From the NCBI GenBank assembly GCA_021204585.1, contig JAJPZC010000151.1:1-43038 (forward strand): a stretch of DNA of 43,038 nt, read 5' to 3'. The DNA is from Clostridia bacterium (GTDB taxonomy: Bacteria; Bacillota; Clostridia; Christensenellales; Borkfalkiaceae). Positions 22,753 to 42,929 of the stretch are shown here, piece by piece. Both the position numbers and the translations under genes were made by a program. Below the pieces are notes generated by a model that saw only the letters and a list, made by a program, of their open reading frames with translations, was not told the origin of the DNA and did no database searches. The stretch's first letter is position 1. Every line of letters begins with the position of its first letter.

Positions 22753-22764
22753 GATTTTGCCATA

Positions 22765-22784
22765 TGTGCCCATGTATGGGCACA
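22765..22784. promoter_or_regulatory. Strong inverted repeat upstream of the first helD-like gene
   Basis: TGTGCCCATGTATGGGCACA is a perfect 9-bp inverted repeat around a 2-base centre, 36 bases before the helicase ATG. Its size and placement fit an operator for a dimeric regulator. It is not present before the second helicase. Confidence 0.55.
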
Positions 22785-22820
22785 ATACACTTTGATATTA
22801 GCTATAGGGGGATACTGTTT

Positions 22821-25190
22821 ATGGACAACAATCAAATGCGCAAGCTTAAGCAGGTTATTAGCCCAAACAAACATCCTGACAAGCAGTTCTTCCATGATTT
22901 TAAAGATCATGATAGGCAAATGCAGATTGAGAACGACCATTTGAATGCTGTCTTGACACTTGCTGATCTGAAGATCGCTGAACAAAAAGGCTGGGAAGGG
23001 CGCAAGGAGAAAGAAAGGGATGATGAACGGGAAACACCAGGCTCTGATAAGTACAAAGTTGAGCGTATGACGCAACTGAAAGCGCAAATCAAAAGAGATG
23101 ATGCTAAGGTTAAAGATCTGGAGTCAATTAAGGTAGATCCCTATTTTGCAAGGGCAGATTTGTATGATGAAGACGGAGGATATAACAGCTACTATATAGG
23201 ATATACTTCTAATACAGATTTAGAGATTGTCGGATGGGAAAGTCCTTTTGCAAAGGCATATTATGCATCACAGCAGCCTTTATACCATGTGAATGGTATA
23301 GATTATCATGTTATTCTTCGAAGGGTGTTAGAACTCGATAAAGATAAGGTGAAGAGAATTGCAGATGATGGGCCTTATCTTGGAGATTACTTTTCGAGTG
23401 AAGAGTTGGCTGATGTAAATGAGACCATGGTCTTTGACTCTTATTTAAAGGATGTTCTTAAGAGTCGCAAAGAGAAGACTGAGATTGTTGATATAATCAA
23501 GACTATACAAGCAATACAGTATGAGATTATTTCACTTCCCGCCTCAGATCAGTTTGTGTGTCAAGGTGTGGCAGGTTCAGGCAAAACTATGGTCTTGTTA
23601 CACAGACTTGCATACTTGCTGGCCAGTAATAAAGACAAGATCCAGTCTGTTAATGTTCTTGTGATTTCGCCATCAGATTCCTACAATGATTTTATCAAAG
23701 GCATTTCCAAAGTGCTGAAAATATCAAACCTTCACACTAGCACAATTGATAGCTATTTCATGTCTGTTCTAAAGAACGCAGAACTGGATTTTTCCGATAA
23801 AATAGACTTGTCAGTCTCACCTAAGAGGGCCTATCTCGAATATCTTTACTCGATGTCGTTTGTCAAGAATGTTGAGGATTATATTGGCAAAACATATGGT
23901 GGGATCACTAAGCTAATTGATCAGGAGAAAGATCTTATCATTAGGATTCTTGAAGCATGTACGCAGCAGATTAATGCATATGGTAAGATTAAGAACAGTT
24001 CCATTCGTGTACAGAGTACTGTCTTGGGAGAGATTACGGATGATACCAATTACTCAAAGCCATTTACCAAAATGGTTGATTGCATCAGGGATGTGTTGGA
24101 ATTTAGCTCATTAGCTTCCATTGACGAGTTAAAAAAATATTCGTATGCTTCTCTTATCGAAAGGTTCTCTTCATTCTACAAGGCAATATGTTATCTCGAA
24201 TCTGATTCCCGCAAGATATGTACGGACGCCCTCAATGATTTGCTTGCACTTAAGAACAATGTTCAGAATGATTTGTTGGATGCTGAATATGGCAAAAAGA
24301 AGTCCAGTACGGATGATGAACCGCGTAGTGCTCAAACAGTCAGATATAAGAATCTTGTTTCGGAGATAGATTCTGCCTGTTCTCTTGTTCAGAGGGTATC
24401 AGATGGGCTTGCCCCGATACTGTATTTTGCTCATGTAATGCATGATGCTGAGTCCCTGGATGATATCGGGAAGTGCAAGAAGGCCAAAGATGTTATAGAA
24501 CATTTTTACAACTTCTTCGTGCTACCTAGGAAGAAGGAATATAAAGTTAAAACAACGTCGTTCATGAAGTGTGATGTGTATACTTTTGCGTACATTCTCT
24601 CAGAACTTGGATATGACCTTACACCTAAGTATGCGTACATGTTCATAGATGAGGCACAGGATATCTCATGGCCGGAATACCATATTTTGAAGACCATAAA
24701 CAAGAACGCCGTCTTCAATATTTATGGCGATCTAATGCAGAATATAACACCATTCCGAGGACTTAAAAGCTGGGACAGTATTGGCCTCGATGTTTACAAT
24801 CTAGATATAAACTATCGTAACACTAATGAGATAGTAAACTATGTGGCCAGCGAACTGCGAATTGACATGAAACCCGTTGGAGTTAGCGGGGAACCGGTCA
24901 AGACTCTTTCTGCCAAAAACGCAGCTGCGTATCTTTCTCAACGGAAGGGACTTAAAGCAATTATCTGTTCTGATGAAAGCTTACATGCCTTTAAAGACGC
25001 TTCATATAATCTTCTCAGAAGGACCAATAAGGTTGCCAAGGATAGGATCAATGTCATGACGGTCTATGAAAGCAAAGGCCTTGAGTTCTCAGCTGTTGTC
25101 GTTTGTGATAACGACCTTTCCGCCAACGAAAAATACATAGCTTATACAAGAGCACTTAGCGAACTTATCGTTGTCCATGATAAGGTATAG
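22821..25190 (+). CDS. HelD-like superfamily 1 helicase, copy 1 (AT-rich)
   Basis: This 789-residue protein is a UvrD/Rep-fold ATPase of the HelD group. HelD proteins of Gram-positive bacteria bind RNA polymerase and release it from nucleic acids, using an N-terminal coiled coil and ATP. The N-terminus here is charged and coiled-coil-like (about residues 1-95). Walker A is GVAGSGKT at 249-256; later motifs are FIDEAQD, GDLMQNITPFRG (motif III), NYRNTNEIV and VYESKGLEFS (motif V) and AYTRALSEL (motif VI). The ATG at 22821 has GGGGGA 8 bases upstream; an in-frame ATG at 22764 lies in the inverted repeat. Its base use is much more AT-rich than its paralogue at 27681, suggesting separate acquisition. 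HelD versus another SF1 helicase is not certain. Confidence 0.85.
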   Translation: MDNNQMRKLKQVISPNKHPDKQFFHDFKDHDRQMQIENDHLNAVLTLADLKIAEQKGWEGRKEKERDDERETPGSDKYKVERMTQLKAQIKRDDAKVKDLESIKVDPYFARADLYDEDGGYNSYYIGYTSNTDLEIVGWESPFAKAYYASQQPLYHVNGIDYHVILRRVLELDKDKVKRIADDGPYLGDYFSSEELADVNETMVFDSYLKDVLKSRKEKTEIVDIIKTIQAIQYEIISLPASDQFVCQGVAGSGKTMVLLHRLAYLLASNKDKIQSVNVLVISPSDSYNDFIKGISKVLKISNLHTSTIDSYFMSVLKNAELDFSDKIDLSVSPKRAYLEYLYSMSFVKNVEDYIGKTYGGITKLIDQEKDLIIRILEACTQQINAYGKIKNSSIRVQSTVLGEITDDTNYSKPFTKMVDCIRDVLEFSSLASIDELKKYSYASLIERFSSFYKAICYLESDSRKICTDALNDLLALKNNVQNDLLDAEYGKKKSSTDDEPRSAQTVRYKNLVSEIDSACSLVQRVSDGLAPILYFAHVMHDAESLDDIGKCKKAKDVIEHFYNFFVLPRKKEYKVKTTSFMKCDVYTFAYILSELGYDLTPKYAYMFIDEAQDISWPEYHILKTINKNAVFNIYGDLMQNITPFRGLKSWDSIGLDVYNLDINYRNTNEIVNYVASELRIDMKPVGVSGEPVKTLSAKNAAAYLSQRKGLKAIICSDESLHAFKDASYNLLRRTNKVAKDRINVMTVYESKGLEFSAVVVCDNDLSANEKYIAYTRALSELIVVHDKV

Positions 25191-27519: not shown

Positions 27520-27629
27520 GGCATACGCCATCCGGAAAGGCTCCATGAGGGCAAAATACGCACATATGTGCGGGGACTGAGGCTTATTGCAGAATTTTAG
27601 ATTGAGGGCAAATTTGTTTGCATTTTGTC

Positions 27630-27658
27630 TTGATTATTGCAGTTTTGTATGGTAAAAT
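27630..27658 (+). promoter_or_regulatory. Promoter of helD-like copy 2
   Basis: TTGATT (27630-27635), 17-base spacer and TAAAAT (27653-27658). The leader is only about 16 bases to the ATG at 27681. Confidence 0.7.
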
Positions 27659-27680
27659 CAGTTATCAGGACACTATTTTT

Positions 27681-30092
27681 ATGGCAGACATTGAGAAGCT
27701 TAAAAACTTCATAAGCCCCCATAAAGAGCCGGACAAGCAGTTCTTCATGGACCTTCTGGACATGGACAAGCAGGTGGAGTATGAGAACACTCATATAGCC
27801 GCCGTTATGGCCACGCTCAAAGGGCTGTACCTAAAGAAGCTCCAGGACAAGGAGAAGGCCGCCAAGGCTGAGAAGGAAGAGCTCCGCACGGGCCCGGACT
27901 ACAATGCGGAGAAGTACAGAAGGACGCTGGAGCTGGACGAGGAGATAGCGAAGGTGAGGGCAAAGATGAGGGAGTACAAGCCCTTCTTCGATGAGCCCTA
28001 CTTTGCCAGGATGGACCTTACGGACCCCATAGAGGGCTACAACAGCTACTACATAGGAAAGCGCGGGGATGAGGGCCTGGAGATAGTGGACTGGCGCGCG
28101 CCGCTTGCACGCAGGTATTACCAGAAGAGCCGCACGTCTTTTTCCATAAACGAGTATGATTACAAGCTCATTCTGCGCAGGGCGGTTCATACCCACAGCG
28201 GCAAGGTCACAGAGATACGCAACGAGTACCTGTCCGTGGATGACTATCTTTCCAAGGAAGAGATAGCTGGCAGGGATGAGACCCTCATATTTGACCCCTT
28301 CCTCAGGGAGATTTTGGAGAGCCGCCGCGAGAAGCAGGAAATAACAGACATAATAGAGACCATACAGGAGAAGCAGTATGAGGTCATAACCCTTCCGGAC
28401 AAGGATGAGTTTGTGCTGCAGGGTGTTGCCGGAGCCGGCAAGACCATGGTTCTTCTGCACCGCCTCTCATACATAATGTACAACAACGAGAGCATTCATC
28501 CCACGGACGTACTCGTAATTACTCCTTCGGACTCATTCAACGCCTTCATAGACGAACTCTCAGAGATCCTGGAGCTGGAAAAGGTGCGCACCAGCACGCT
28601 TGACAACTACTTTGGCATGGTCCTGAAGAACGCAGGCGTGGAGATAGAGGACAAGATAGACAGTCACCTTCACGTGTCCGCAGACTACCTTACCTATCTC
28701 TATTCCAACGACTTCATGGAGGACATAGACAGCAAGTTAGCTAAGATATATGACGGGGTCTTTGGCATATTCTCCGCCCCCGAGTGCCGTGACATGGTGG
28801 ACGGCGTCATGCGTGCCTGCGATGAGCAGTGCGCAGAGTATGACAGGATTAAGAACAGCTCCGTCCGTGTCCGCAGGTGCGTTTTAGGCGAGATAAAGGA
28901 GCGTGCCGGGAGCCTGTACTACACCAAGCGTTTCCGCAACATGTTCAACTGCGTGCAGGACATCCGCGAATTCTTAGGCCTCATCTTCACGGATGAGCGC
29001 ATGAAGGGCTACGCATACTTCTACCGTGAGCTCTTCTCGTTCTACAAGTCCATCCGCTACATCGCATCCAACTCCGGCAAGATATGCGCGGAGGCCATGA
29101 CAGATTTGCAGACTCTCCGCTCCAACGTGGAGAAGGAGATAGCCGATTTGAAGCGGTACAAGATACGGGACTTCGGCGTGGAGCAGTATCTGTATGCAGA
29201 CGGCATAGAAAAGCGCGAGGCCCTGGTGAAGGAGATAGGATCAGCCCTCATCTGGGTGCAGGCCATTGCAGACAAGTTCGCCCCCGCCCTGGACTTTGCA
29301 TACGTCCTGAAGGGCATGAAGGACCTCGTTGCCATCGGCAAGAGCGAGGGCACCATAGACGTGCTCCGCTTCTTCTACCGTGAACTCGTCCGGCCGCTCA
29401 AGATAAAGTACGGGGTAGTCACGAAGCCCCTTATAAAGTCGGACCTCTATGCCCTGGTCCTCATCCTCACCAAACTCGGCTATGACCTCCTTCCGAAGTA
29501 CGCATACCTCTTCATAGACGAGGCGCAGGACATCTCGGAGCCGGAGTATTACATCTTAAAGACCATAAACACCCGTGCAGTCTTCAACGTCTTCGGAGAC
29601 CTCAAGCAGAACATAACGCCCTTCCGCGGCCTCAAGAGCTGGGATCTCTTAGGCTTTACCGTATACAACCTGGACATCAACTACCGCAACACCAACAACA
29701 TCGTAAACTTCGTATCCGAGAACCTCGGCGTCCAGATGCTGCCCACAGGCTTTGACGGCGAACCGGTCAAATACCTTCCATCCCGCGGCATCACCTCATA
29801 TCTGTCCGGCAAGAAAGGCCTCAAGGCCATCATATGCTCCGCAGACAACCTCGAGGCCCTGTCCCGCACCACGTACAACATCCTCCGCAAGACGGGCAAA
29901 GTGTCCAAGGACAAAATAAACCTCATGACCGTCTACGAGTCCAAGGGCCTCGAATTCTCCACCGTGGCCGTCTATGACGCAGACCTCACGGACAACGAGA
30001 AGTACATAGCCTACACCAGAGCCCTCAAAGAGCTGGTCATAATCTGTGACACCGCTCCCAAGCCCGCTCCCGCAGACAAAACCGACTCCTGA
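27681..30092 (+). CDS. HelD-like superfamily 1 helicase, copy 2 (GC-richer)
   Basis: This 803-residue protein is a paralogue of the helicase at 22821: the N-terminal motif KNFISPHKEPDKQFF versus KQVISPNKHPDKQFF and most helicase motifs match along the whole length. The N-terminus is a coiled-coil-like, Lys/Glu-rich region. Walker A is GVAGAGKT at residues 248-255. Motifs FIDEAQDIS, QNITPFRGLKS, NYRNTNNIV and VYESKGLEFS follow. HelD-group proteins remodel RNA polymerase complexes. The start at 27681 has only a weak AGGA site but lies directly after a good promoter. Codon use resembles the core genes (ATA and GC-rich third positions), in contrast to copy 1. Copy 2 is therefore the more likely resident copy. 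Confidence 0.87.
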   Translation: MADIEKLKNFISPHKEPDKQFFMDLLDMDKQVEYENTHIAAVMATLKGLYLKKLQDKEKAAKAEKEELRTGPDYNAEKYRRTLELDEEIAKVRAKMREYKPFFDEPYFARMDLTDPIEGYNSYYIGKRGDEGLEIVDWRAPLARRYYQKSRTSFSINEYDYKLILRRAVHTHSGKVTEIRNEYLSVDDYLSKEEIAGRDETLIFDPFLREILESRREKQEITDIIETIQEKQYEVITLPDKDEFVLQGVAGAGKTMVLLHRLSYIMYNNESIHPTDVLVITPSDSFNAFIDELSEILELEKVRTSTLDNYFGMVLKNAGVEIEDKIDSHLHVSADYLTYLYSNDFMEDIDSKLAKIYDGVFGIFSAPECRDMVDGVMRACDEQCAEYDRIKNSSVRVRRCVLGEIKERAGSLYYTKRFRNMFNCVQDIREFLGLIFTDERMKGYAYFYRELFSFYKSIRYIASNSGKICAEAMTDLQTLRSNVEKEIADLKRYKIRDFGVEQYLYADGIEKREALVKEIGSALIWVQAIADKFAPALDFAYVLKGMKDLVAIGKSEGTIDVLRFFYRELVRPLKIKYGVVTKPLIKSDLYALVLILTKLGYDLLPKYAYLFIDEAQDISEPEYYILKTINTRAVFNVFGDLKQNITPFRGLKSWDLLGFTVYNLDINYRNTNNIVNFVSENLGVQMLPTGFDGEPVKYLPSRGITSYLSGKKGLKAIICSADNLEALSRTTYNILRKTGKVSKDKINLMTVYESKGLEFSTVAVYDADLTDNEKYIAYTRALKELVIICDTAPKPAPADKTDS

Positions 30093-39456: not shown

Positions 39457-41376
39457 ATGAAGAAAGCATTCAAGCTTGTCATAGCTCCAGTACTTGCAGT
39501 CTGCCTTGCCGGCTCTCTGTGCCTTGCAGCCTGCAGCAGCAACAGTGATGACGGCGGTGATGACGGCAATACTCCCGCAACCGAAAAGATCTACACATTC
39601 GAGGCTGAAAAGGCTCAGCTTAGTGCTGACGAGTCTGAGCTGCTTACCACACTCAGCAATACTGAGTATGGAGAATATGTAACGGATTGCGTGTTCAACG
39701 TGCAGTATGATAATGGTTTTTCTGGCGGTGCATCGGTAGGATATCTCGCCGAGAACAATCCTACGATAACCTTCGTTATTAACTCAGATGTAGCAGTCTC
39801 CGGTGCTCAAATATCAATTAAGGCTGCGTCAATGGACCTTGAGCTGTCCTCCATGTCCAGCATATTAGGCGGTATATATGGACTTGCTGCAGCTTCAATC
39901 AATGATTACAAAGGCGAAGACCACGACATTCTGAAGGTTAATGGAGAATCCGTTGCGCTTTCCGGAACTCTGGAAGGATCTGAAACTGTATTCAAGGATG
40001 TGGATTCTCTTGATGATATTTTAGGTTCTCTTTCTTCAGGGATAGGCGCACTCTTAAGTAATCTCAACTTTGACAACTTTGGAACACTTACAGCAACAGT
40101 TGACCTTAAAGCGGGCGAGAATACATTTGTATTCACAATTGAAAACGGCGCAGGCCTCAACTTCGACTACATGCAGATTACCACAACTGCAACCCTTACA
40201 TGGACAGAAACAGACAACTCTGATTTTGTCAACGGTACCGTGTCAACTGTCATACCTCCGGATGACGATGATGAAGAAGGAAATGAAGGTAATGAAAGTG
40301 CATATGACAACACTTTAACCCTTGGGGCCGAGTATGCAGCATTGTTTAACGCTGAAGGATCATCTGCAGGATCTACCGAAGCAATAGCAACTGAAACATC
40401 CACTGTTGACGAGGAAGAGATCACAAATGTCAAGAACTTCAATGTAGAAGGTGACAAAATTGTATTTGAAGTCTTAGCAAGTGCTGATATTGAGGATGTA
40501 GCTTTAACCATAATGGCTAAATGGACATCATCTAGCAGTAACTATAACGCAAGTGGTGATTCAACGCTTCTTTCTGTAAATGGAGAGACGGCTACCCTTA
40601 CTGGTTCATTGACATCTGGTTCATATCAGGCAATGACAGCTACAATTTCTCTTGATGCCGGTATAAATCACATAGTGCTTACAGCGGACGGCAGCGGATC
40701 ATATCTCGGTACATTGAATCTTGGATGGATGAATATATGGAAAATCGATCTTGGCTGGGATGGTGAGGAAACTATAACAACAAACGCTGTAGCTACCAAT
40801 CTGACGAAACTTGATTCATCTACAGGGACTGCCACAATTGAACTTGAGGAGGCATCTCTAATAAATGCAGCAGGGAAGACGGATGGCTTAACAGATGGTT
40901 TGCTTAAAACAGAGACAATAAGCCAGACTACTACAGATGAGGATTCGGGCGAAGAAACAACAGAATATCGCAGCAGTGCAAGCATTGGAAACTTCAACAC
41001 GCAAGGAGATACGGTTGTTGTGGCTGTTTACTCAGATGCAGATATTGAGAGTGTGACATTGACATTAACCGCAGGCACGGCCATATACAAAATATCGTTA
41101 TCTGGTGGGTTTAAGGCATATCTTGGAGATTATGTTGGCTCAGAACATGATATCCTTTCTGTAAATGGCACTTCTGCAGCATTATCTGGAACAATAACAG
41201 GGAATGAGGACACACTGGATTACTATAACTGTTTCGGCACGCTCTCTGCTACAATTTCTCTTAGCAAGGGTATTAACTATATAGTGTTCACAGCCGATTC
41301 GACTGCAGGTATCAATCTTGACAGCATAACACTCACATGGACCGTTGCTTCTGATGATGCAGAGGCAACAACCTGA
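39457..41376 (+). CDS. Lipoprotein with three beta-sandwich (CBM6/35-like) repeats
   Basis: This 639-residue protein has a Lys-starting signal peptide and a lipobox LAAC at residues 23-26, so Cys26 is lipidated and the protein sits on the outer face of the membrane. After an Asp/Gly linker are three related modules of about 180-200 residues. They start near YTFEAEKAQL, LTLGAEYAAL and ATIELEEASL and end in TATVDLKAGENTFVF, SLDAGINHIVLTA and SLSKGINYIVFTA. These are patterns of CBM6/CBM35-type sugar-binding folds. Ribosome binding site AGGAGGAAAG is excellent. It lies directly behind the GH3 gene, suggesting a role in holding carbohydrate near the enzyme. Its third modules are more AT-rich than the GH3 gene. 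Confidence 0.85.
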   Translation: MKKAFKLVIAPVLAVCLAGSLCLAACSSNSDDGGDDGNTPATEKIYTFEAEKAQLSADESELLTTLSNTEYGEYVTDCVFNVQYDNGFSGGASVGYLAENNPTITFVINSDVAVSGAQISIKAASMDLELSSMSSILGGIYGLAAASINDYKGEDHDILKVNGESVALSGTLEGSETVFKDVDSLDDILGSLSSGIGALLSNLNFDNFGTLTATVDLKAGENTFVFTIENGAGLNFDYMQITTTATLTWTETDNSDFVNGTVSTVIPPDDDDEEGNEGNESAYDNTLTLGAEYAALFNAEGSSAGSTEAIATETSTVDEEEITNVKNFNVEGDKIVFEVLASADIEDVALTIMAKWTSSSSNYNASGDSTLLSVNGETATLTGSLTSGSYQAMTATISLDAGINHIVLTADGSGSYLGTLNLGWMNIWKIDLGWDGEETITTNAVATNLTKLDSSTGTATIELEEASLINAAGKTDGLTDGLLKTETISQTTTDEDSGEETTEYRSSASIGNFNTQGDTVVVAVYSDADIESVTLTLTAGTAIYKISLSGGFKAYLGDYVGSEHDILSVNGTSAALSGTITGNEDTLDYYNCFGTLSATISLSKGINYIVFTADSTAGINLDSITLTWTVASDDAEATT

Positions 41377-41525: not shown

Positions 41526-42047
41526 ATGGAAGATAGTGAGGGCAAGGAAAACAAGGAACGGACTGATATCACATTGGCACAGTGGCAAACCTGCGTTGAG
41601 ATGGCCAATGCAGCCAGTCAAAGAAGAGATGTCATGAATGGGCTGTTTGTTACAGTGAATCTGGCATTAGTTGCTGCTGTATCAATTGTATGGGACGTCA
41701 AGGCGGTGTGTATAAGTGTTGCGGGCTTTTGTATCTGTTTTGTTTGGTTAATATTCATTATTAGCTATAGGAAGCTTAATACAGCAAAATATGAGGTTAT
41801 CAACAAGCTTGAGGAAAGTCTTCCTTATGCACCTTTCACAGAAGAATGGAAGGCATTAAAGGAAGGGAAAAAGAATCGTCGGTTTTCCAAATCGACACAA
41901 AAAAGTGAACTTAATCAATGTTCAGATTCACCGAAAAGCAAGAAGAGTCATTATATTGAACAGACTTGGATAGAAGGGATTTTATCAGGTGTATTCATGG
42001 CAGGCTATATCATTATGCCAGTTATAATAAGTATTTATGGAGGTTAA
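41526..42047 (+). CDS. Small three-helix membrane protein (RipA/SLATT-like) linked to a TIR gene
   Basis: This 173-residue protein has a soluble N-terminus, two close transmembrane segments (about 41-57 and 60-80), a soluble middle and a third at the C-terminal end (about 148-170). The pattern EMANAASQRRDVMNGLFVTV and SYRKLNTAKYEVINKLEESL-P-x-x-PF-x-x-EW is that of RipA-like/SLATT-like small membrane proteins, which occur with TIR or nucleotide-signalling proteins in defence islands. It would be the candidate effector that damages the membrane when activated. The ribosome binding site is weak (GAGATGTTGT). The TIR gene starts one base after the stop, so the two are certainly linked. Codon use is AT-rich, unlike the core genes. 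Confidence 0.72.
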   Translation: MEDSEGKENKERTDITLAQWQTCVEMANAASQRRDVMNGLFVTVNLALVAAVSIVWDVKAVCISVAGFCICFVWLIFIISYRKLNTAKYEVINKLEESLPYAPFTEEWKALKEGKKNRRFSKSTQKSELNQCSDSPKSKKSHYIEQTWIEGILSGVFMAGYIIMPVIISIYGG

Positions 42048-42048
42048 G

Positions 42049-42480
42049 GTGTCGTACATATTTTACAACCAGGGAAAAAAATATTACAATTTATTCATCA
42101 GCCACTCTTGGAAGTACGCAGATCAATATGATCGCCTTGTTGCACTTTTGGACGCAAAGGATAATTTTGATTTCAAGAACTATTCAATACCTATGGATGA
42201 TCCCATCAATGATACTGATAGTGACAAGGAATTGAAGGAAGCCATAAGAAATCATATCAGTCCGGCGAGTTGCGTAATAGTTTTAGCAGGAGTATATGCT
42301 ACATACAGCAAGTGGATTAATATTGAAATAGAACTGGCTCAGGAAATGGGGAAGAAGATTCTAGCGGTTAAGATTAGGGGTAATGTAGAAGTTTCTACAG
42401 TGGTTAGTGATGCGGCAGACGAAATTGTTAACTGGAACACAGATTCTATTGTCGAAGCCATACGTAGGCTATGTGATTAG
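42049..42480 (+). CDS. TIR-like protein of the ThsB (Thoeris, DUF1863) type
   Basis: This 143-residue protein is a TIR-fold domain of the DUF1863 group that includes ThsB of the Thoeris anti-phage system. Marks are YYNLFISHSWKYAD (residues 12-25), KNYSIPMDDPI (43-53) and SCVIVLAGVYATYSKWI (74-90) with candidate catalytic Glu93 (INIEIE), and IVNWNTDSIVEAIR at the end. ThsB-type TIRs make NAD-derived signal molecules when phage infection is sensed. The start is GTG 42049 with a perfect GGAGG site 5 bases upstream inside the end of the membrane protein gene; an ATG at 42037 lacks a site. No ThsA (SIR2/SLOG or Macro) gene is present, so the membrane protein is the likely effector. Confidence 0.82.
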   Translation: MSYIFYNQGKKYYNLFISHSWKYADQYDRLVALLDAKDNFDFKNYSIPMDDPINDTDSDKELKEAIRNHISPASCVIVLAGVYATYSKWINIEIELAQEMGKKILAVKIRGNVEVSTVVSDAADEIVNWNTDSIVEAIRRLCD

Positions 42481-42548
42481 AATAGCAAGTTCTTATGACT
42501 TTCATTCCGCAGCTTAATATGTCATAGCATCATAGTACACAGCGAAGG

Positions 42549-42577
42549 CAGGGATTAACTAACAATCCCTGTCTTTT
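42549..42577 (+). terminator. Terminator after the TIR gene
   Basis: CAGGGATT (42549-42556) pairs with AATCCCTG (42564-42571), then TCTTTTG. It closes the two-gene transcript. Confidence 0.8.
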
Positions 42578-42929
42578 GCGTTTACGATTTTACAGTTCCC
42601 CAGTCTCAAATCTGCACATATTACAGCCTTTGCCGGAGGCCGTTCCAACAATATGTGAACTTGCGGGTTCTAGACCATTCCGGCATCATCAGGTTTTTGC
42701 ATGAACATTCGTTTGAACGGACTTGTATGCAGTTAAAGGCACTTTATGACGGTGAAGTGAAATATTAGAAACTTTTGGCCAAAGTATTGACTTTTTTGCC
42801 ATATATCACTTATTATAGAAACAAGGTTATTAAGAAATAACTGTCGTTAGATGCGACTTATAAGCACTTATAGGCCAAATTGGCATGTGCTATGGTCGCA
42901 CAGTCCAATAAATATGAAAGGGGTCCGTT
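42578..42929. other. Spacer before the last gene
   Basis: About 350 bases with no gene that I can support. A perfect palindrome TTTGGCCAAA (42774-42783) touches the promoter at 42787; a GCCAA-A-TTGGC repeat is near 42873. Confidence 0.55.
42787..42816 (+). promoter_or_regulatory. Promoter of the last gene
   Basis: TTGACT (42787-42792), 18-base spacer, TATTAT (42811-42816). The TTTGGCCAAA palindrome (42774-42783) lies just before the -35 and may be an operator. Confidence 0.65.

Follow-up and report, generated by a model that had tools for sequence, protein, structure and literature searches.

A TIR gene and a small membrane-protein gene stand side by side near one end of a 43,038-nucleotide stretch of Clostridia DNA (the window, meaning that whole stretch), and they raise the question of whether such a pair can be a Thoeris-like defence system in which the place of ThsA is taken by another effector. 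This was the reading proposed by a first-pass annotation, which had also described a ThsB-type TIR, a three-helix membrane protein of RipA/SLATT type, a terminator belonging to the unit and an AT-rich island of transferred origin. The open reading frames confirmed a two-gene unit at 41526..42480, with the membrane-protein gene first and the TIR gene second, and the same two genes were found together in other genomes. The membrane protein belongs to the Pfam family 8xMP. The reading towards which we lean, by a small degree, is that the two genes form a Thoeris-like abortive-infection module in which an ADP-ribose-type signal made by the TIR protein would open an oligomeric 8xMP membrane protein.

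The two-gene unit in the window

The 8xMP gene occupies 41526..42047 on the forward strand and encodes 173 amino acids, with a TAA stop codon at 42045-42047. The TIR gene follows on the same strand at 42049..42480. Its start may be the GTG at 42049, one base after the TAA as originally described, or an in-frame ATG at 42037 that would overlap the 8xMP gene; most TIR relatives begin with M(T)TYNLFISHSW and do not have the N-terminal extension seen in the window TIR, so that either start is possible. A GGAGG ribosome-binding site for the TIR gene was indeed located inside the 3′ end of the 8xMP gene (42039..42043, forward strand), five bases 5′ of the GTG. Among the 10 loci of alignments A1/A2, the distance from the 8xMP end to the TIR start was −4 to +13 bases, which suggests translational coupling. 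At locus L060 80 bases separate the two genes, and at L061 an extra TIR gene intervenes.

The TIR protein matched Pfam PF08937 (ThsB_TIR) with an E-value of 3.5e-19 and 69.5 bits against a cut-off of 21.2, and PADLOC called it ThsB at 1.5e-19, so the HMM searches bore out the assignment to the ThsB/DUF1863 type. An AlphaFold2 model had a pLDDT of 86, and in its Foldseek list EcThsB (8wcf) ranked 6 and the B. cereus TIR (8fz9) 13 and 17, with other Rossmann-like folds ranking as high or higher. The glutamate of the W-x-x-x-E stretch was kept in all 53 aligned TIR domains. In the window this is the putative catalytic Glu93, numbered from the GTG (codon 42325..42327, forward strand), which we take to be the catalytic residue of TIR NADases.

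The 173-residue protein matched Pfam PF24838 (8xMP, ‘Octameric membrane protein family’) at an E-value of 3e-29 and 102 bits against a cut-off of 30, over profile positions 2-133 of 136 and thus over the whole domain. Hydropathy revealed three hydrophobic segments (about 38-56, 62-80 and 149-171), and the AlphaFold2 single-chain model was all helix at a moderate mean pLDDT of 74.8, in agreement with the three-helix description. The SLATT/RipA label, on the other hand, had to be given up: the Pfam assignment is 8xMP, no Pfam SLATT model matched the protein up to E 1, no RipA model was encountered, and a profile comparison of 8xMP with three SLATT-type proteins returned a probability of 0.3%. 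A remote relation between the two families could still exist because one distant 8xMP member had a sub-threshold SLATT_1 match (6.6e-4). No PADLOC model matched the protein up to E 1, Pfam gave no Macro match, and phmmer, profile and fold searches yielded no solved 8xMP structure. The Foldseek and VIA-align rows obtained for the model were generic long helices and were rejected as relatives.

The alignments placed the most conserved parts of 8xMP in the N-terminal helix before TM1, which carries QWxTCVEMAxxxSxRRxxxN, and in the loop between TM2 and TM3, which carries LNxAKYxVIxxIExxLPxxPFxxEW. We infer a topology in which the N-terminus and the TM2-TM3 loop are cytosolic, and the conservation of these two parts would fit the binding of a signal or contact with the TIR protein. 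The protein may form an octamer, as the family name alone implies.

Unit GC content was 0.386 against 0.518 for the whole window, and the upstream gene (39457-41376) was likewise AT-rich at 0.438. The AT-richness of the proposed cassette was therefore observed, but its transferred origin agreed less well with genome G045, from a species of the same genus, in which related genes flank the pair at the same position. Protein identities of 60 and 61% for this same-place pair suggest inheritance from an ancestor common to G045 and the window host. Between the two genomes dN was 0.29 and 0.31 and dS 2.0 and 1.4 for the two genes; both look to be under purifying selection, with dS near saturation. 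The upstream gene was matched in 8 of 93 genus genomes, strongly in the host genome and G045 only. The proposed terminator fared in a similarly divided way. RNA folding identified a terminator-like hairpin 3′ of the unit (42542..42579, forward strand) with a T-rich 3′ arm, at −20.2 kcal/mol and z −5.9 for 42538-42585, but a scan for consensus terminators found none; it is plausible that the hairpin is the unit's own terminator. Farther away in the window there are two genes of similar size with UvrD-helicase domains (22764-25190 and 27618-30092), the first of which is AT-rich (GC 0.397) within a GC-rich stretch.

Pairing and fusion of TIR and 8xMP

A scan of the genome_contigs set with the 8xMP protein matched 20 stretches, eight of which encode relatives, and at all eight loci the next gene was a TIR gene. 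These loci come from Clostridia, an Erysipelotrichaceae, a Lentisphaerae and a Neisseriaceae bacterium; all are metagenome-assembled except Clostridium porci, and one (L019) is a contig of G045. The sole match in viral contigs (L027) was also paired with a TIR gene, and phage records gave no 8xMP match. Among 391 class genomes there were nine 8xMP matches, and the five intact copies were all paired with a TIR gene (window genome, G851 and G803) or fused to one (G647 and G121). G623 (L064) carries a truncated 8xMP remnant with no TIR beside the same hsdR-like neighbour as the intact pair of G851 (L060), and this is a decaying copy. Three weak class matches (L065-L067, with E-values of 1e-4 to 6e-4) were left out of the count of relatives after inspection of the reading frames at L065 and L067.

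A search of plasmids retrieved 27 records, of which 19 regions were examined, the other eight being close to these in score and organism. In 14 of the 19 a ThsB-type TIR gene lay upstream of 8xMP, the reverse of the window's gene order. Nine of these pairs are haloarchaeal, and one each comes from Novosphingobium, Synechococcus, Polaromonas, Paenarthrobacter and Paracoccus, with the 8xMP gene interrupted on the Paracoccus plasmid. The two genes overlap or are adjacent, except in L028, L068 and L069, where about 210 bases lie between them. In a fifteenth region, Rhizobium leguminosarum pRL22b6 (L033), a TIR_2-NB-ARC-WD40 gene lies directly upstream of 8xMP, which is a STAND-type version of the partnership; its TIR_2 match scored 24.5 bits, below the cut-off of 28, and the name NB-ARC is taken from the record's annotation. 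The remaining four regions (L031, L036, L037 and L038) had no adjacent TIR. The paired TIR proteins of haloarchaeal loci L028 and L069-L073 have an N-terminal extension of about 120-190 residues, and in the three scanned (L028, L071 and L073) it had no Pfam match under E 0.01. On Paenarthrobacter plasmid pYJN5-2 (L035) a TIR-caspase pair and a TIR-8xMP pair lie about 1.7 kb apart, and second TIR genes were seen near the pair at L022, L061, L030, L039, L070 and L071.

Fusions gave a further form of the association. The 10 8xMP matches among 200 relatives were the window, the G045 pair and eight single-chain fusions of 290-319 residues with the TIR part N-terminal and the 8xMP part C-terminal. 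Nine fusions were found in all (L003-L010 and L062). Seven belong to the window's genus, where 9 of 93 genomes hold TIR and 8xMP as a pair or a fusion. In the eight fusions scanned out of nine, 8xMP was always over the Pfam cut-off; a TIR-type match under E 0.01 was obtained in seven and one over a curated cut-off in five, leaving three below every curated TIR cut-off. The TIR part of L010 was matched only by a profile built here from unfused TIRs. Given the topology proposed for 8xMP, a TIR at the N-terminus of such a fusion would lie in the cytosol.

With 8/8 genome_contigs loci, 14/19 plasmid regions and the fusions, the neighbourhood survey suggested by the first-pass annotation upheld a conserved pairing, and because of this conservation a chance association is excluded. 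The same 12 loci (window, L019-L027, L060 and L061; hereafter the window clade) clustered both in the tree of TIR domains (95/94) and in that of 8xMP proteins (95/64). In the latter, 40 of 45 proteins formed one clade (100/98) with 35 members linked or fused to a TIR, one following the TIR-NB-ARC gene and four with no TIR. TIR and 8xMP distances were correlated over 26 two-gene loci (r 0.66, permutation p 0.0001), and weakly so within the window clade (r 0.38, p 0.078). Judged from these sequence comparisons, TIR and 8xMP appear to be inherited as a unit.

The fusions bear on how the TIR protein would act. They could point to gating by direct contact, the TIR protein being a sensor or scaffold that opens 8xMP from the cytosolic face with no diffusible signal and with NAD cleavage secondary. 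In all nine the conserved N-terminal helix of 8xMP adjoins the TIR, the unfused genes are closely coupled, and the fused TIRs keep the glutamate and have lost other signature residues, namely those of FISHSW and the W of W-x-x-x-E. Yet a glutamate kept in every domain aligned is more than scaffolding needs, and pairing of the same TIR clade with caspase-like proteins suits a diffusible signal. We consider gating by contact unlikely, though worth keeping in view.

The genes around the pair speak to whether it serves immunity at all. Restriction-modification or BREX genes lie within two genes of the pair in 9 of the 12 loci of the window clade: BrxL and GmrSD (L020), HsdS and GmrSD (L021), a Res-type subunit (L022 and L025), HsdR (L023 and L060), a DNA methylase (L024), HsdS (L027), and Eco47II with a C5 methylase (L061). 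Among the neighbours inspected in the window, G045 and L026 no such gene was recognised. Of the window neighbours scanned, one was a glycoside hydrolase family 3 enzyme and the other had no Pfam match, and neither was recognised as a defence protein. A housekeeping or stress-signalling pair would be compatible with the window and G045, where the flanking genes have no recognised defence role, but it sits poorly with the defence genes of the nine loci and with the patchy distribution within the genus in either architecture, and we regard it as very improbable.

The Pfam family 8xMP is wider than its TIR-linked use. Among 398 phylum genomes 19 had an 8xMP match and eight were over the cut-off; a TIR lay within about 1.5 kb in two of these eight (window and G208) and was missing in six. 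One 8xMP gene with no TIR lies near a KAP-family NTPase gene (L040, in G581), and for others, judging by the frames, a nearby gene is GmrSD-like (L044) or DNA methylase-like (L045).

Other partners of related TIR proteins and the Thoeris types

A search of viral contigs with the TIR alignment gave eight loci, one of which (L075) had already been found as the pair L027. At six of the eight (L076-L081, L077 and L079 being near-copies) the TIR was 47-55% identical and adjoined a caspase-like gene; at L082 it was 44% identical and the type of partner was unclear. The closest TIRs found away from 8xMP, at 52-55% identity, were those on viral contigs that adjoin caspase-like genes. A plasmid TIR search had 105 matching records, and six non-8xMP regions were examined among the 40 listed. 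Among the matches listed, a Thiolapillus plasmid (L083) carries a TIR of 51.5% identity with a caspase partner, and more distant TIRs (38-42% identical) face a DUF4231 protein. The Pfam caspase domain was present in all four partners scanned (L076, L080, L083 and L014), and the DUF4231 partner was SLATT_3-SLATT_1 in the one scanned (L088). On the Serratia, Enterobacter and Klebsiella plasmids (L084, L086 and L088) the TIR gene is convergent with the DUF4231 gene.

In a tree of 53 TIR domains, 36 fell into one clade (99/98) in which 8xMP, caspase and SLATT partners were intermixed. Five changes were needed for the caspase label and six for the TIR-then-8xMP label; well-supported branches forced three and four of these, respectively. 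The intermixing indicates repeated exchange of effectors, in a tree whose bootstrap had not settled and which has several long branches. That the closest TIRs away from 8xMP adjoin caspase-like genes likewise suggests that one TIR clade has exchanged effectors.

This exchange also bears on a toxin-and-partner reading, in which the TIR protein itself would be a toxic NADase that 8xMP only anchors, restrains or localises. Bacterial TIRs can be NAD+-depleting effectors (PMC12847820, in the text available), and the compact overlap of the two genes resembles toxin-antitoxin pairs. However, 8xMP also occurs with no TIR, in some cases near genes that look defence-like from their frames, as expected of an effector module, and the wider TIR family switches partners among caspase, SLATT and 8xMP proteins. 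A toxic TIR held by 8xMP is in our judgement improbable.

How the unit relates to the known Thoeris types was considered for each in turn. In the available text of PMC12847820, type IV Thoeris is a TIR and a caspase-like protease in one operon with N7-cADPR as signal, and type II a TIR with a TM-macro ThsA and His-ADPR as signal. The unit resembles type IV in its two-gene layout and in that the caspase-linked TIRs, whose loci we call type IV by architecture alone, share a supported clade with the window TIR; it differs in that the effector is a small membrane protein and not a caspase-like protease. No caspase-like gene lies beside the window TIR, and no Peptidase_C14 was found in the host genome (93% complete; control positive). 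With type II the unit shares a TIR and a membrane effector, but 8xMP is a different membrane family with no Macro match. Type I, in which ThsB is paired with a SIR2-SLOG ThsA, is resembled in the ThsB-type TIR (PF08937) and in the second TIR gene that sometimes lies near the 8xMP pair, but from 36000 to the end of the contig (43038) no SIR2-SLOG ThsA frame was present. The earlier statement that no ThsA accompanies the TIR thus stands, as no SIR2-SLOG, TM-macro or caspase gene was recognised next to it. Elsewhere in the host genome a SIR2-like frame cut by a contig end (L090; G000:C101, 1-816, minus strand) is 30% identical to ThsA over the SIR2 part only and adjoins what from its frame is a threonyl-tRNA synthetase-like gene. 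Two genomes of the same genus (G024 and G052) have TIR and SIR2-type pairs with a distant TIR, as judged from frames.

Two further systems were compared. The TIR-DUF4231 loci of enterobacterial plasmids likewise put a TIR of the same wide ThsB-type family beside a small membrane protein, but that protein was SLATT_3-SLATT_1 and not 8xMP in the one scanned, the genes are convergent and the TIR is only 38-42% identical. Csx28 of Cas13b systems is described, in the available parts of PMC12669027 and PMC13153721, as an octamer that forms a pore and so depolarises the inner membrane. It is similarly a small defence-associated membrane protein and an octamer, as 8xMP is by family name only; but 8xMP matches no solved chain by profile or Foldseek, and the likeness is one of analogy.

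What was found on the TIR side agrees with Thoeris, namely a ThsB-type TIR, the conserved glutamate, an effector-candidate gene in the same operon and a conserved pair, whereas the window unit has none of the effectors known from types I, II and IV. For these two reasons the unit was not filed under a Thoeris type. In the text available from PMC12847820, PMC12948488, PMC13232231, PMC13373217, PMC12390725, PMC13153721 and PMC12669027 there is no mention of 8xMP or of a TIR-8xMP pairing, and the papers found to contain the string ‘8xMP’ deal, by title and abstract, with other subjects than this family. A search on PF24838 or type V Thoeris, mostly of literature outside the subscription journals, had no match, and the only statement on type III Thoeris in the accessible text of the literature searched was that a phage gene protects from it. 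We conclude that the TIR-8xMP unit is a variant outside Thoeris types I, II and IV, of which an earlier description in print is possible.

A model for the TIR-8xMP module

In the slightly favoured reading, an abortive-infection module with a diffusible signal, the ThsB-type TIR would sense an infection cue and, by means of its conserved glutamate, turn NAD+ into an ADP-ribose-type signal. The NAD-derived signalling to the membrane protein that the first-pass annotation had proposed is a reasonable hypothesis. The signal may be N7-cADPR, since the closest TIRs found outside the pairing adjoin caspase-like genes. Its target would be 8xMP, on the side that faces the cytosol; the 8xMP protein would assemble in the inner membrane, possibly as an octamer, and would then depolarise or permeabilise it, so that growth stops before phage release. 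We infer the signal chemistry, octamer, pore and anti-phage activity of the module from the comparisons above. A bolder proposal, which we put forward tentatively, is that of an undescribed Thoeris type across bacteria and archaea, in which a ThsB closely related to the caspase-linked TIRs gates an octameric channel and which, in the window's genus and class, includes a fused protein that would both make its ligand and be gated by it.

The carriers include several named isolates (Clostridium porci, Synechococcus elongatus IITB6, Halorubrum lacusprofundi, Novosphingobium sp. ES2-1 and Polaromonas sp. H8N), which makes the idea directly testable, and structural studies of how a TIR is coupled to the membrane could use the natural fusions as a compact system. 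If the model is correct, one TIR signal clade would serve effectors unrelated to each other, a caspase-like protease and 8xMP, with SLATT membrane proteins adjoining more distant TIRs. It would then be possible to ask whether signal and effector specificity co-evolve. The 8xMP family would likewise gain a function and a likely ligand.
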